IMG/VR virus record: IMGVR_UViG_3300031669_000146
Location: 1 to 32,417 of that record
Length of the DNA stretch: 32,417 nucleotides
Direction: 5' to 3' (one strand)
Source: a virus
Below, piece by piece: positions 3,140 through 19,717 of this stretch. Positions within the stretch are counted from its first letter, which is position 1, and the number at the start of each line of letters is the position of its first letter. The position numbers and the translations under genes were made by a program. The notes below the pieces were generated by a model. The model did not search any database, was not told where the DNA came from, and worked only from the letters and a program-made list of their open reading frames with translations.

Positions 3140-3339
3140 TTCGTGCGATCTAGTTCAGCTAGGAGGGCATCGGCGTGCTCAACGGCCTCCATTGCCGCTA
3201 AAGAGGGCGTCCACCAGCCGCCATCTTCGGACCCAGTTGAGATGAGCGCCGCCATGCAATCCTTCGCGATCTCATACCGCCGCTGCTCCCGGCGTTCACA
3301 GAGCGCCTGAGTTTTCGCATCTGTCAGAGGGTAGGTCAT
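3136..3339 (-). CDS. Hypothetical small early protein
   Basis: A 67-residue protein starting [20 protein letters not shown]. The start at 3339 overlaps the stop of the pentapeptide-repeat gene as ATGA, which I prefer over an in-frame ATG 19 codons earlier inside that gene. The protein appears wholly helical and ends in LAELDRTK. The segment KDCMAALISTG...WWTPSLAAMEAVEHADALL resembles small phage proteins of unknown role. Confidence 0.6.
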   Translation of the reverse strand: MTYPLTDAKTQALCERREQRRYEIAKDCMAALISTGSEDGGWWTPSLAAMEAVEHADALLAELDRTK

Positions 3340-4010
3340 ATCGATTGCTCCATGTCGTCGGCGGTGATTTCGATGCGCACTTCCCGGTCTTTGCACAGCA
3401 GGTCAATGATGCCGATCAGTGTGGGGTAAAAATCGGTGGCTCTCTTGCCGTCCATCTCTGCGATTTCTTCGTCGCTCATCGCCCGCCACTCGCCAAAGGT
3501 ATGGTTTTGGCACCCGGCGCGCAGATGTGTGTCGGTGACTAAAATCGGATACGCCATTCCATTGATTTGAATCACAGAATGCCCGTTTATTTTTGCGTTG
3601 GCCCCGAACAGGTTGGCCCCGCGCAGGTCGGCCTCGCGCAGGTCGGCCCCGCGCAGGTCGGCCCCGCGCAGGTCGGCCCCGAACAGGTTGGCCCCGCGCA
3701 GGTCGGCCCCGCTCAGGTCGGCCTCGCGCAGGTCGGCCCCGCTCAGGTTGGCCCCGTACAGGTTGGCCCCGAACAGGTTGGCCCCGAACAGGTTGGCCCC
3801 GCGCAGGTCGGCCTCGCGCAGGTCGGCCTCGCGCAGGTCGGCCTCGCGCAGGTCGGCCCCGAACAGGTTGGCCCCGCGCAGGTCGGCCTCGCGCAGGTCG
3901 GCCTCGCGCAGGTCGGCCTCTCCGCGTATTGCGGCAAGCACTAATTCTTTAACGGTTTCGACTTCTGCCGAGAAAATGACAGCGTTCGTAAAGCGGTTTA
4001 GTAGGTCCAT
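3336..4010 (-). CDS. Pentapeptide-repeat protein
   Basis: A 224-residue protein. After a 25-residue start ([19 protein letters not shown]) it has about 21 consecutive pentapeptides of the A(D/N)LXX type ([15 protein letters not shown]), which fold into a right-handed quadrilateral beta helix. The C-terminal part (about 140-224, [16 protein letters not shown]... and [12 protein letters not shown]) is a non-repeat domain often attached to phage pentapeptide proteins. Some members of the fold mimic DNA and protect or inhibit gyrase; whether this one does cannot be told. The start at 4010 has GAGGGA upstream and follows the previous stop directly; an ATG at 4052 would overlap the upstream gene. 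The repeat DNA is unusually uniform. Confidence 0.85.
3600..3920 (-). repeat. 15-bp tandem minisatellite inside the pentapeptide-repeat gene
   Basis: The pentapeptide domain is encoded by about 21 head-to-tail 15-bp units, nearly all one of two versions on the + strand: GCGCAGGTCGGCCCC or GAACAGGTTGGCCCC, with a few single-base variants. Each unit is five codons, so gain or loss of units keeps the reading frame. The near identity at silent positions shows recent expansion or homogenisation, not an old repeat held by protein selection alone. Confidence 0.9.
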
Positions 4011-4011
4011 T

Positions 4012-4338
4012 TTAATTCCCTCGTGAGTTGAGATTGATAACAGCCTGTTCATGTATCACGCGCCCGCACAGGTCCAGAATCTCCTGGCTGACATCTTGCA
4101 GGCCCTGGGCGCGTTCTTCGCCCTGATAGCGATATTGTGATATGAGCTTGCGGATGAGTCTCTGCATCTTGTCCTTCTCGTATCCGCTGAGAGAGTCCAA
4201 AAGTTCCGGGGACTCTCCTGGGAAGTCGCATATGGATTGCTCTTCCTTTTCAATTGCTTCCTGCAACGCTGCTGCCGCGTCTTCGTCGTCCTCGGCGTCG
4301 GCCTGGCGCTGGTCGTTGTATGAGTCGTATCTGGTCAC
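4012..4338 (-). CDS. Hypothetical acidic early protein, first gene of the leftward operon
   Basis: A 108-residue protein read from a GTG at 4338 ([20 protein letters not shown]), which has a perfect AAGGAG seven bases upstream. An ATG at 4386 is excluded because it lies inside the predicted -10 box of the leftward promoter (4383-4388), upstream of the transcript start. The first third is strongly acidic with an alanine/glutamate helix; the second half (about 55-100) is a regular helical region with [19 protein letters not shown]. Function unknown. Being promoter-proximal it is probably among the earliest and most abundant leftward products. Confidence 0.62.
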
Positions 4339-7731: not shown

Positions 7732-8120
7732 ATGAGTTGATGTTGCCGTACCCGATATCTACCAACCGGTACTGGCGCAACTTCCGGGGGCACACGACGG
7801 TCAGCGCTGAGGCTAAGGCGTACAAGGCCGCTGTGTGGGCTCTGGCGCGGTCCCAGGGCGTCAGCGATCCAACTACGGGGCCTGTATCCATAGCGATAAC
7901 TTTGCATCCCATGGCTCCAAAAGATTGGCACAAACGGCAGCTAAAAGACCCGTTCGGAGATACCGTTAGAAGTATCGACTTGGATAATTCCTCTAAAGTA
8001 ATTTTTGATATTTTACAAGGCATTGCATACGAAAATGATCGACAGATCAGGCGGATTTCGATGGAGCGCGGAGTGCCGATGCCGGGCGGAGGGTTATGGG
8101 TGGCTTGGGACGTGCTATAA
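7728..8120 (+). CDS. rusA: RusA-family Holliday junction resolvase
   Basis: A 130-residue endodeoxyribonuclease, close to the usual RusA length of about 120. The active-site region DLDNSSKVIFDIL (84-96) gives the first two aspartates and the lysine, and ENDRQI (102-107) supplies the third aspartate. The N-terminus PYPISTNRYWRN matches the family start P-x-S-x-N-x-x-W. Translation begins at a GTG overlapping the previous stop (GTGA). It resolves Holliday junctions made during recombination or replication and pairs logically with the exonuclease of the leftward operon. Its stop codon lies inside the TATAAT box of the following cassette. Confidence 0.9.
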   Translation: MNELMLPYPISTNRYWRNFRGHTTVSAEAKAYKAAVWALARSQGVSDPTTGPVSIAITLHPMAPKDWHKRQLKDPFGDTVRSIDLDNSSKVIFDILQGIAYENDRQIRRISMERGVPMPGGGLWVAWDVL

Positions 8121-8121
8121 T
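8094..8121 (+). promoter_or_regulatory. Promoter of HNH cassette copy A
   Basis: A perfect TATAAT (8116-8121) with a poor -35 TTATGG (8094-8099, spacing 16). The same TATAAT occurs at the same distance from the leader RNA in cassette copy B, where the -35 is better. The predicted start, about 8128, coincides with the first base pairs of the leader structure. The box overlaps the rusA stop codon. Confidence 0.55.
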
Positions 8122-8126
8122 ACCAA

Positions 8127-8210
8127 TGTGGCTAGGTTGCGCGACCGAACTCCAGCTCCTTCACTGGCTGCCACACCCTCAACTTGAAGGCAGTTTGAAG
8201 GAGCTATTCA
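8127..8210 (+). ncRNA. Structured leader RNA of HNH cassette copy A (three-way junction, anti-Shine-Dalgarno loop)
   Basis: The 5' leader can fold as P1 TGTGGC/GCCACA (8127-8132 with 8170-8175), P2 GGTT/AACT (8135-8138 with 8148-8151; GACC at 8143-8146 is an alternative) and P3 CCAG/CTGG (8152-8155 with 8164-8167). The P3 loop region AGCTCCTTCA (8154-8163) is perfectly complementary over ten bases to TGAAGGAGCT (8196-8205), which contains the Shine-Dalgarno of the HNH gene. The Shine-Dalgarno also sits in the loop of TGAA-GGAGCTA-TTCA at the start codon. Copy B at 18920 has the same layout with compensating changes. Structure is seen by hand; function is inferred. Confidence 0.6.
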
Positions 8211-8737
8211 TGATCGAGATCCCCTTAACACAAAACCAGATTGCGCTGATTGATGATGAAGATTTTGAGATTGTGTCGAAGTACAAGTGGTCTGCGCTGT
8301 GGAACCCATGCACGAAATCTTTTTATGCGAAAACCGACATCGCCAAGCCAGACGGGAAACGGACAAGAGTGCAAATGCACCGCCTCGTTATGAATGCCCA
8401 GCCGGGCGAACAAGTGGATCACATCCATCACCTGACACTTGATAATCGGAAATCGGAATTGAGACTTTGCACCCGAAGCCAGAACCAATGCAACACCGGG
8501 AAACACGCCGACAACACAAGTGGGTACAAAGGTGTTGGATGGCATAAGCACAATCAAAAATGGGAGGCACAGATCGCGCTTGACGGCAAGAAAAAGCATC
8601 TCGGCTACTTCGGCACTCCCGAACTCGCGCACGCTGCCTACTGCAAAGCCGCCCATGAGTTACACGGCGACTTTGCTAACTTCGGATGTCTCAATGTCCC
8701 GCACAACCCTGAACAAACATCACGAACAGGATCGTAG
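8210..8737 (+). CDS. HNH homing endonuclease with AP2 domain, copy A
   Basis: A 175-residue free-standing endonuclease. After a start domain (MIEIPLTQNQIALIDDEDFE) it has the HNH core (MHRLVMN at 56-62, VDHIHHLTLDNR at 69-80, SQNQCN at 90-95) and a C-terminal AP2 DNA-binding domain (SGYKGVGWHKHNQKWEAQI ... LGYFGTPELAHAAYCKAAHEL, about 104-151). Such proteins cut or nick DNA to promote their own spread. AAGGAG lies six bases before the ATG at 8210. It is about 70 percent identical by eye to copy B at 18999. The last 19 residues are absent from copy B and are read through the antisense of the convergent gene at 8691-8828. Confidence 0.9.
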   Translation: MIEIPLTQNQIALIDDEDFEIVSKYKWSALWNPCTKSFYAKTDIAKPDGKRTRVQMHRLVMNAQPGEQVDHIHHLTLDNRKSELRLCTRSQNQCNTGKHADNTSGYKGVGWHKHNQKWEAQIALDGKKKHLGYFGTPELAHAAYCKAAHELHGDFANFGCLNVPHNPEQTSRTGS

Positions 8738-12555: not shown

Positions 12556-13224
12556 ATGACGGAAGACGTTGATAAATATAAGAAAAGTCGAGAGACGAAA
12601 GGAAAGCCCAATGTTTACGCTGAAGGCTGGCTCACGATCACACAAAAGCTATGCACTATGATGGCAGGCTTCACGGTCACCGTGGATATGCGCGTTGCAC
12701 TAGCAATTTGCGCCCATGCTGATTATCACAATGGCTTACTGGTCACCCAGGCCGATATAGCAGCAGAGCTTAAGGTGGCGCGTGCTACTGTAAACAGGTC
12801 ATTTTCACGCCTGAGAAAATTGCAGGTGATCGAGAGGGTCAGTCGGGCGTCTGAACCAACCGCATATAGGCTTAATCCTGATTACGCATGGCGTGGATCT
12901 GGCAAGGCGCACCAGAAGGCGTTATGGCAGAAAGAGGCAGACAAGGCGCGCGCTATCAAGGAAGCAAGAGAGGCGGATAACCTAGCCCGGCTGAGAGTGG
13001 CAAGGATGAAATTCCTAGCATCACACCCTGAAGCCAGCAAATCGAGAAGGCGCACGGCAAAATCAGGATACAAGGGCGTCACGGCGCACAATGGCGGTTG
13101 GCTTGCGCAGATACAGATACGATGCCAGCGCTACAATTTGGGCACGCATGCTACGCCAGAATTGGCGCACGCTGCCTATCTCAAGGCCAAAAAAGAGCTA
13201 TCGATACACAAGCCGAAAGACTAG
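12556..13224 (+). CDS. RepL-like winged-helix protein fused to an AP2 DNA-binding domain
   Basis: A 222-residue protein. Residues about 45-115 form a winged helix (VTQADIAAELKVARATVNRS, residues 63-82) ending in TAYRLNPDYAWRGSG (102-116). That end motif is characteristic of RepL-type plasmid and phage replication proteins. A basic helical linker (120-165) leads to an AP2 domain (SGYKGVTAHNGGWLAQI ... THATPELAHAAYLKAKKEL, 170-215) closely like those of the two HNH proteins in this window, but with no nuclease core. AAGG lies ten bases before the ATG. A candidate origin follows directly. Replication initiator and transcription regulator are both possible; the fusion itself is clear. Confidence 0.72.
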   Translation: MTEDVDKYKKSRETKGKPNVYAEGWLTITQKLCTMMAGFTVTVDMRVALAICAHADYHNGLLVTQADIAAELKVARATVNRSFSRLRKLQVIERVSRASEPTAYRLNPDYAWRGSGKAHQKALWQKEADKARAIKEAREADNLARLRVARMKFLASHPEASKSRRRTAKSGYKGVTAHNGGWLAQIQIRCQRYNLGTHATPELAHAAYLKAKKELSIHKPKD

Positions 13225-18902: not shown

Positions 18903-18915
18903 TGTCGTATATAAT
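18887..18915 (+). promoter_or_regulatory. Promoter of HNH cassette copy B
   Basis: TTACAA (18887-18892), exactly 17 bases, TATAAT (18910-18915). The predicted start near 18922 falls at the base of helix P1 of the leader RNA, as in copy A. Confidence 0.65.
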
Positions 18916-18919
18916 CGAC

Positions 18920-18998
18920 TTGCGGCTAGGTTTGATCCCGAAAACCTGTACTCCACAGGCTGCCGCAACACCCTCCCGGAGCCAGATTGGAGAATCTG
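18920..18998 (+). ncRNA. Structured leader RNA of HNH cassette copy B (three-way junction, Shine-Dalgarno in a hairpin loop)
   Basis: P1 TTGCGGC/GCCGCAA (18920-18926 with 18962-18968), P2 AGGTTT/AAACCT (18928-18933 with 18942-18947) and P3 CCTGT/ACAGG (18945-18949 with 18955-18959; P2 and P3 share three bases, so their border is flexible). The P3 loop carries ACTCC. Downstream, CAGATT-GGAG-AATCTG (18983-18998) is a perfect 6-bp hairpin with the Shine-Dalgarno GGAG as its tetraloop, ending at the start codon. CTCCA (18951-18955) can pair with TGGAG (18988-18992). The layout matches copy A, with compensating base changes in P1. Confidence 0.65.
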
Positions 18999-19478
18999 AT
19001 GATTGAAATACCATTAACACAAGGCCAAGTTGCGCTGATTGACGATGAAGACTATAGCCTGGTTTCCCAGCATAAATGGCACGCGGCGTGGGCCCCAAAC
19101 ACGAAATCATTTTACGCCGCGACCGATATCCGCAAGCCGGATGGCAAACGGACAACGCTGCGAATGCACCGGCTTATCATGGGTGCCCAGCCCGGTGAAC
19201 AGGTAGACCACATCCAGCACTTGACGCTAGACAATCGCAAGTCGGAATTGAGGCTTTGTACGAATTCAGAAAACCTAATGAACAGAGGGGCACAAGAAAA
19301 CAATACCTCCGGTTTCAAGGGGGTTGGTTGGAATAAGCGAGACCAAAAATGGACGGCACAAATCGTGCTGAATGGCAAGAATAAGAGTCTCGGATACTAC
19401 GCCACACCAGAACTCGCCCACGAAGTCTATTGCCGTGCTGCCCATGAGTTGTATGGCGAATTTGCGAGAGTCGCGTAA
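18999..19478 (+). CDS. HNH homing endonuclease with AP2 domain, copy B
   Basis: A 159-residue paralogue of the endonuclease at 8210. The N-terminus MIEIPLTQGQVALIDDEDYS, HNH core (MHRLIMG, VDHIQHLTLDNR at 69-80, SENLMN) and AP2 domain (SGFKGVGWNKRDQKWTAQI ... LGYYATPELAHEVYCRAAHEL) align with no gaps. It ends ELYGEFARVA, where copy A runs on for 19 more residues. The ATG at 18999 directly follows the Shine-Dalgarno hairpin; an upstream TTG in frame is less likely. The stop overlaps the ATG of the biotinyl-domain gene, so the cassette sits seamlessly between two virion-region genes. Confidence 0.9.
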   Translation: MIEIPLTQGQVALIDDEDYSLVSQHKWHAAWAPNTKSFYAATDIRKPDGKRTTLRMHRLIMGAQPGEQVDHIQHLTLDNRKSELRLCTNSENLMNRGAQENNTSGFKGVGWNKRDQKWTAQIVLNGKNKSLGYYATPELAHEVYCRAAHELYGEFARVA

Positions 19479-19717
19479 TGGCGCACTACAAAATAGAAAG
19501 CCCCATGTTTGGATCAATCGCGCAGATTAACTGTGAGGCAGGAGATACGGTTGAAGAAGGTGATGTATTGTTCATGATGGAAGCGATGAAATTTCAATAT
19601 CATGTCGAAAGCCCCGCCGATGGGATATTCTATCCATTGGTACCGCTAGGCGCGGTAGTTTCAGAAGGCCAGATGATAGGAAAGGTTGAAGTGCCAAAAC
19701 AGGAAAACAAAAAATGA
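19478..19717 (+). CDS. Stand-alone biotinyl-carrier (BCCP-like) domain protein
   Basis: A 79-residue protein that is essentially one biotinyl/lipoyl-attachment domain: SPMFGSI at the start, GDTVEEGDVLFMMEAMKF (22-39), then VESPADGIFYPL and a final VVSEGQMIGKVE. The EAMK motif with Lys38 is the signature of biotin attachment, rather than the ETDKA type of lipoyl domains, and the two half-repeats of the barrel are visible. The host BirA ligase would be expected to biotinylate Lys38. No carboxylase, transcarboxylase or ligase is encoded nearby. The ATG overlaps the HNH stop, and its own stop overlaps the glycosyltransferase start. Its role in a phage head region is unknown. Confidence 0.85.
   Translation: MAHYKIESPMFGSIAQINCEAGDTVEEGDVLFMMEAMKFQYHVESPADGIFYPLVPLGAVVSEGQMIGKVEVPKQENKK

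Follow-up and report, generated by a model that had tools for sequence, protein, structure and literature searches.

Two leaders of HNH-AP2 endonuclease genes in a tailed-phage contig belong to the int-alpA RNA family and carry a variable loop complementary to two downstream sites

The window analysed here, i.e. the whole 32,417-base stretch of DNA forming an IMG/VR virus record, contains terminase, portal, major head and tail-sheath genes and is therefore that of a tailed phage. Two of its genes, located at 8210..8737 (+) and 18999..19478 (+), encode HNH-AP2 endonucleases of 175 and 159 aa, respectively, which share 70% identity. The AP2 domain was detected above its cut-off in both proteins (36.0 bits in endonuclease 1 and 40.1 bits in endonuclease 2), while the HNH_3 domain scored below its cut-off (21.8 and 21.9 bits, respectively). 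Both domains are assigned nonetheless, as HNH_3 reaches an E value of 1.5e-4 despite the cut-off and phrog_99, matched by endonucleases 1 and 2 with E values of 7e-45 and 1.3e-41, respectively, represents HNH endonucleases; additionally, residues D70, H71 and N79 are invariant across four homologues. The stop codon of endonuclease 2 coincides with the start of a 79-aa protein with a biotin/lipoyl carrier domain (19478-19717; PF00364, 49.5 bits) and an MEAMK motif, which lies in the head-gene region and represents an unusual cargo for a phage. A pentapeptide-repeat protein (PF00805, 128.7 bits) is encoded at 3336-4052 (-).

Both endonuclease genes are preceded by a common leader, as proposed in the first-pass annotation of this DNA, and the TATAAT boxes and the blocks GGCTAGGTT, GGCTGCC and ACACCCTC listed there are all present. 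In leader 1, the -10 box recognised in the sequence (TATAAT, 8116..8121, +) is of the extended type, with TGC before the box, and shares positions 8118-8120 with the stop codon that ends the RusA gene upstream; among 51 leaders of the wider collection described below, 29 have TGn before TATAAT. The three-way junction of leader 1 (8127..8175, +) is composed of P1 (TGTGGC 8127-8132/GCCACA 8170-8175, +), P2 in the pairing of the family (GGTT 8136-8139/GACC 8143-8146, +) and P3 (CCAG 8152-8155/CTGG 8164-8167, +). The P3 loop, termed L3 (CTCCTTCA, 8156..8163, +), is antisense to two downstream sites, namely T1 (TGAAGG, 8185..8190, +), which complements L3 just 3' of P1 as its putative pseudoknot partner, and T2 (TGAAGGAG, 8196..8203, +), which is the exact reverse complement of L3 and constitutes the Shine-Dalgarno (SD) region ahead of the ATG at 8210, where the leader ends. 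Leader 2 is organised likewise, with a -10 box (TATAAT, 18910..18915, +), a three-way junction (18920..18968, +) made of P1 (TTGCGGC 18920-18926/GCCGCAA 18962-18968, +), P2 in the family pairing (GG 18929-18930/CC 18938-18939, +) and P3 (CCTGT 18945-18949/ACAGG 18955-18959, +), and the L3 loop ACTCC (18950..18954, +). Its matches are short (4-5 bp): T1 (GGAG, 18978..18981, +) complements L3 over 4 bp, which is weaker than in most members of the family, while T2 (TGGAG, 18988-18992, +) overlaps the loop of a hairpin, P4 (CAGATT(GGAG)AATCTG, 18983..18998, +), that displays the SD GGAG immediately before the ATG at 18999.

Comparison with Rfam 15 by cmscan identified leader 1 (8125-8190) as int-alpA (RF02996) at 39.2 bits, above the gathering cut-off of 35.8 bits, while leader 2 (18919-18982) matched the model over its full length at 33.7 bits (E 2.4e-5 in 401 bases), just below that cut-off. 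Both leaders display the int-alpA layout of P1, P2 and P3 around CUAG and CGAA and are members of this family, the only one in Rfam that was matched in the window; the fold itself was thus already known, whereas the first-pass annotation had not recognised it as any known riboswitch or ribozyme class. We take the name int-alpA to refer to a location between the int (integrase) and alpA genes. The window leaders precede HNH-AP2 genes of a tailed-phage contig and thus lie outside this naming context, which is not a structural criterion. The Rfam model ends at T1 and the family is typed as 'Gene; sRNA', whereas the window copies are 5' leaders that are followed by a start codon at a distance of approximately 30 nt and whose loop fits the SD. 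The family was reportedly described in a paper of 2017; in the literature searched, which did not extend to this original description, int-alpA appears only as a genome-scan entry, RF02996 is not named anywhere and an assigned mechanism for int-alpA was not found. The anatomy and use of int-alpA as described here appear to be new.

Relatives of the leaders were collected from viral contigs with the pattern TATAATN{5,10}GCTAGGN{5,10}CCGAA, which matched at least 119 stretches, of which at least about 80 (counted among the matches listed) carry the complete structure with an open reading frame immediately behind it; this census, like the scan of genome contigs presented below, is a lower bound and biased to the sequence type containing TATAAT, GCTAGG and CCGAA. 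A dozen pattern matches were excluded by eye, some of them (e.g. L112, L122 and L203) being chance matches that lack the structure and others being mis-parsed. A covariance model, R1, was built from 70 leaders (alignment A2), including both of those in the window, and returned only these two matches over the window (52.3 and 48.3 bits, respectively). The window also encodes a third AP2-like protein (12556-13224), which possesses an HTH domain where the HNH would be and matches phrog_99 weakly in its C-terminal part; the R1 scan did not find a leader at this gene. Across P1, P2 and P3 of the 70 leaders, 217 double-sided compensating cells were counted versus 61 in shuffled alignments and at most 60 in slid controls, the covariation score was 0.606 (0.151 shuffled, at most 0.112 slid), and the 13 consensus pairs were paired in 92% of cases (67% shuffled, at most 54% slid), which bears out the earlier suggestion of selection on RNA structure. 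Nearly all double-sided changes fall in P1 and P3, the two helices that had been drawn correctly in the first-pass annotation. The P2 given there (GGTT/AACT and AGGTTT/AAACCT) is not the conserved helix: although a single-sequence fold of leader 2 also yields this alternative, the family pairs GG with the CC immediately 5' of GAA, i.e. GGTT/GACC in leader 1 and GG/CC in leader 2, and its two core pairs are almost invariant, hence providing little information for or against P2. The junction letters GCTAGG and CCGAA and the G after P3 are likewise invariant. The folding energy of the three-way junction alone was no outlier against shuffled sequences (z -0.05 and -0.65 for the two leaders), so that support for the junction is comparative and does not derive from folding energy.

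Complementarity of L3 to the two downstream sites was found in more than 50 distinct phage and prophage leaders, with T1 just 3' of P1 and T2 at the SD, often within the loop of a P4 hairpin; L3 varies between leaders, and both sites change along with it. In 51 leaders with distinct L3 loops, L3 scored 13.1 against its own T1 versus 6.7 against swapped partners, and 13.3 against its own T2 versus 9.2 against swapped partners, a control that accounts for any general tendency of the loops to match SD sequences. In 20,000 permutations, neither observed score was attained once. None of L3, T1 and T2 was used in the pattern search (TATAAT/GCTAGG/CCGAA) or in helix parsing. The signal persisted upon dereplication at 80% (n=40; z 13 for T1 and 11 for T2) and at 70% (n=12; z 6.0 and 5.6, respectively), while a set of five leaders was too small for power. 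Mean duplex energies were -7.2 kcal/mol for T1 and -7.3 kcal/mol for T2, compared with -2.6 and -4.2 kcal/mol for swapped partners. These concerted changes weigh against the proposal that the leader is a plain structured 5' end, acting as an mRNA stabiliser or as a recognition site on the DNA for the endonuclease, the L3 matches being incidental. Such a role would agree with a predicted transcription start at the base of P1, and the operator bound by I-TevI likewise lies at the promoter of its own gene (PMC2988022), but many of the genes preceded by a leader do not encode endonucleases, and we regard this proposal as very improbable.

The start codon follows P1 at a narrow distance, approximately 27-41 nt in most leaders, and is in most cases immediately preceded by a P4 hairpin containing the SD (stem score 12.1 versus 8.6 in shuffled sequences); P4 is clear in leader 2, and weak or absent in leader 1 and a few others. 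In its predicted full-length fold (-29.5 kcal/mol), leader 1 gives up the junction, and L3 together with the 3' strands of P3 and P1 pairs with the SD region. A nested fold of this type was predicted in just four of 63 leaders; outside of these, L3-T2 pairing would constitute a loop-loop contact, which is beyond the models of these programs. Leader 1, being folded so strongly onto its SD in this prediction, may simply be off. The L3 of leader 2 fits T2 of leader 1 as well as its own T2, and judged by these motifs the two window leaders could cross-react through CUCC/GGAG. Where a phage or genome carries two or three leaders, their L3 loops differ and score better, on average, against their own targets (13.9 versus 6.3 and 13.5 versus 8.6), consistent with a private control for each mobile gene.

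An independent set of matches to Rfam's own RF02996 model, obtained from Enterobacteriaceae, displayed by eye the same order of junction, T1, SD hairpin and start codon, as exemplified by L360 (L3 AAGCCTTA, T1 TAAGGC and P4 GCGT(GAAAGGTG)ACGC). In the ten distinct L3 loops of this set, T1 scored above all permutations, while T2 was indistinguishable from swapped partners (1128 of 20,000 permutations), because many of the L3s in this set are alike. Groups of leaders with a common loop also occur: AACCT(GA) is common to L115, L118, L123, L127, L132, L133, L151, L159, L184, L193, L196, L201 and L224, which precede differing genes and whose known carriers are Acinetobacter and Psychrobacter phages, and TCGTC to L125, L134, L153, L168, L182, L191 and L237. 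These two sets may mark groups within which action in trans would be possible.

The arrangement resembles several characterised systems. C4 of phages P1 and P7 (RF01695) is a three-way-junction antisense RNA that is co-transcribed with its target; it hides a ribosome binding site, with specificity provided by variable loops (PMC5320573), and in phage P1 its targets occupy the places of T1 and T2, a2 following C4 at a distance of 4 nt and b2 lying immediately 5' of the start codon of icd. C4 employs separate segments, a' and b', for the two sites, whereas int-alpA possesses one loop, L3, for both, and the T1 and T2 pairings would therefore be exclusive. C4 is also processed at its 5' end by RNase P; the predicted transcription start of the window leaders lies at P1 already. 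The C4 covariance model did not find a match in four leader records (68.8 bits for the phage P1 control), nor did R1 find one in phage P1; membership of C4 was consequently rejected, since the models do not cross-match, and int-alpA would be like C4 in operation while forming another Rfam family. The CI RNA of satellite phage P4 is similarly a single leader antisense RNA with two complementary sites, seqA and seqC, in its own transcript (PMC4825925), but it works by transcription termination and its sites flank CI on both sides. Control of transcription, in which the operon is attenuated along the lines of P4 immunity, either through pairing of L3 with nascent RNA or through a terminator at P1, would find a precedent in this termination through seqA and seqC (PMC4825925) and in the U-run directly after P1 in some leaders, e.g. 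L096 and L113. This alternative is improbable, given that a U-run of five is present there in only five of 51 leaders (for which reason it was dismissed as a general terminator feature), that R1 did not match in the P4 immunity region and that the position of T2 on the SD points to translation. Homing endonuclease genes of the T4 type (I-TevI, mobE and segB) have their ribosome binding site hidden in RNA structure (PMC2988022), and leader 1 is predicted to fold in this manner; the T4 hairpin forms on read-through from upstream promoters, whereas the predicted window promoter precedes the whole leader, in which the conserved junction would compete with the masking fold.

We therefore favour, with a probability of roughly 0.7, the reading that int-alpA leaders are co-transcribed, C4-like antisense leaders in which L3 pairs with either T1 or the SD, this competition governing translation of the following gene. 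Transcription would start at the base of P1 from the TATAAT promoter, and the three-way junction would display L3. Pairing of L3 with T1 would form a pseudoknot that leaves the SD free, while pairing with T2 would cover the SD and be expected to stop ribosome binding. As these pairings would be mutually exclusive and their mean strengths are about equal across the family, the leader could thereby set the amount or timing of downstream translation, presumably in response to some trigger. RNA freed from its own transcript may, moreover, act in trans by binding T2 on a second one, in the manner of C4 of phage P1, which would result in a dosage-dependent shut-off of the mobile endonuclease; a plausible logic would be a burst of endonuclease in a naive cell, followed by shut-off as the RNA builds up. 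The cis-regulatory role already suggested in the first-pass annotation gains support from the complementarity of L3 to the gene's own SD region. If, instead, the junction were released as a small RNA with its main target in another transcript, the gene behind it would be incidental. The Rfam type 'Gene; sRNA' is in keeping with this possibility, as is the release of C4 (PMC5320573) and of the P4 CI RNA (PMC4825925) from the leaders of their own targets, but L3 fits its own T1 and T2 far better than those of others (which would still allow the RNA to act in trans on mRNAs of the same type) and the start codon lies at a narrow distance; we consider it unlikely. The L3-T1-T2 pattern provides a specific and readily testable mechanism for the orphan int-alpA family and hints at a second way of achieving antisense control of the C4 kind.

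The genes that follow the leaders are diverse. Among 75 downstream proteins, 21 matched HNH phrog_374 and 16 HNH_3, while others matched GIY-YIG (2), IS605 OrfB, resolvase, Rha, KilA-N, lambda P and DUF1376/primosomal proteins (4); near-identical leaders were observed before different genes (L127, L132, L133 and L159; also L168 and L191). This lack of a metabolic theme, encompassing HNH, GIY-YIG, TnpB-like, resolvase, Rha, KilA-N and primosomal functions, argues against a ligand riboswitch, in which a small molecule would stabilise the junction and the L3-T1 pseudoknot and thus decide access to the SD. Invariant junction letters, a partner for a pseudoknot and an alternative pairing with the SD that excludes it are typical of such elements, but L3 is free to vary as in antisense systems, and a riboswitch, while perhaps the least unlikely of the alternatives considered, remains doubtful. 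In the scan of genome contigs, the matches listed included Acinetobacter, Enterobacter, Buttiauxella, Pantoea, Vreelandella and Janthinobacterium, in addition to members of the Bacillota (Enterococcus dispar, Eubacterium sp. and a Bacillus MAG). The family is sporadic, being detected with the Rfam model in 14 of 149 genomes of one enterobacterial family and with R1 in 6 of 99 and 1 of 150 genomes of two other families, each draw of genomes being centred on a known carrier genome. Bare-leader blast against phages did not produce a useful match, and searching E. coli genomes by blast with one type of leader was likewise negative.

The leader is not bound to HNH-AP2 genes. The Rfam model gave three matches on 50 records with HNH-AP2 homologues, and among the HNH-AP2 loci retrieved, R1 detected a leader at no more than two pairs, namely that of the window and L003/L004 (L093 being the L003 site again); its two other matches among the fetched records, L091 and L092, precede different genes. 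Most HNH-AP2 relatives consequently have no leader, and an obligate link was rejected, as R1 added nothing at the fetched HNH-AP2 genes beyond L003/L004. Since it stands before varied genes, the leader is a module rather than a private part of HNH-AP2. We lean, by a modest degree, towards the broader view that int-alpA is a widespread modular phage control, in which one variable loop picks either a decoy (T1) or the gene's own ribosome binding site (T2), thus providing a private, self-matching antisense that moves with each mobile gene. If true, this one-loop choice would explain an orphan RNA family, and the L3-T1-T2 pattern links int-alpA to mobile genes, homing endonucleases among them, in phages of proteobacteria and Bacillota. 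With L3 varying on a constant scaffold, the family would therefore constitute a naturally occurring set of RNA translation switches that are largely separate from one another.

The earlier suggestion that the leader travels with the endonuclease holds in part. In phage Bas81, a promoter, leader and HNH gene lie between terL and the preceding gene, while in phage seszw the latter continues straight into terL, corresponding to an empty site. Similarly, leader 2 and endonuclease 2 of the window display nucleotide homology to L004, which belongs to another phage, from the -10 box (18909) to 19468, while the other fetched DNA of the L004 contig is unaligned except for the HNH genes and a 38-base stretch. 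Judged by these comparisons, leader and endonuclease move together in places, Bas81 carrying a related cassette and not the window copy; many unrelated genes with a leader, and few HNH-AP2 loci with one, speak against a general association. Mutant genomes of Salmonella phage seszw (the series MZ375295-MZ375349) vary in size; the leader-HNH cassette is retained in some and may be missing from others, and this series could reveal whether the cassette is dispensable. In L195 (9131-9660, +), a Bas81-type leader directly precedes a protein that starts like Bas81 terL (MARKRLSA...), without an HNH gene in between; one of the 75 downstream proteins matched Hom_end_hint and may be this L195 protein. 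In pIS4-A, the open reading frame that follows from a Bas81-type leader is annotated as an 839-aa terminase.
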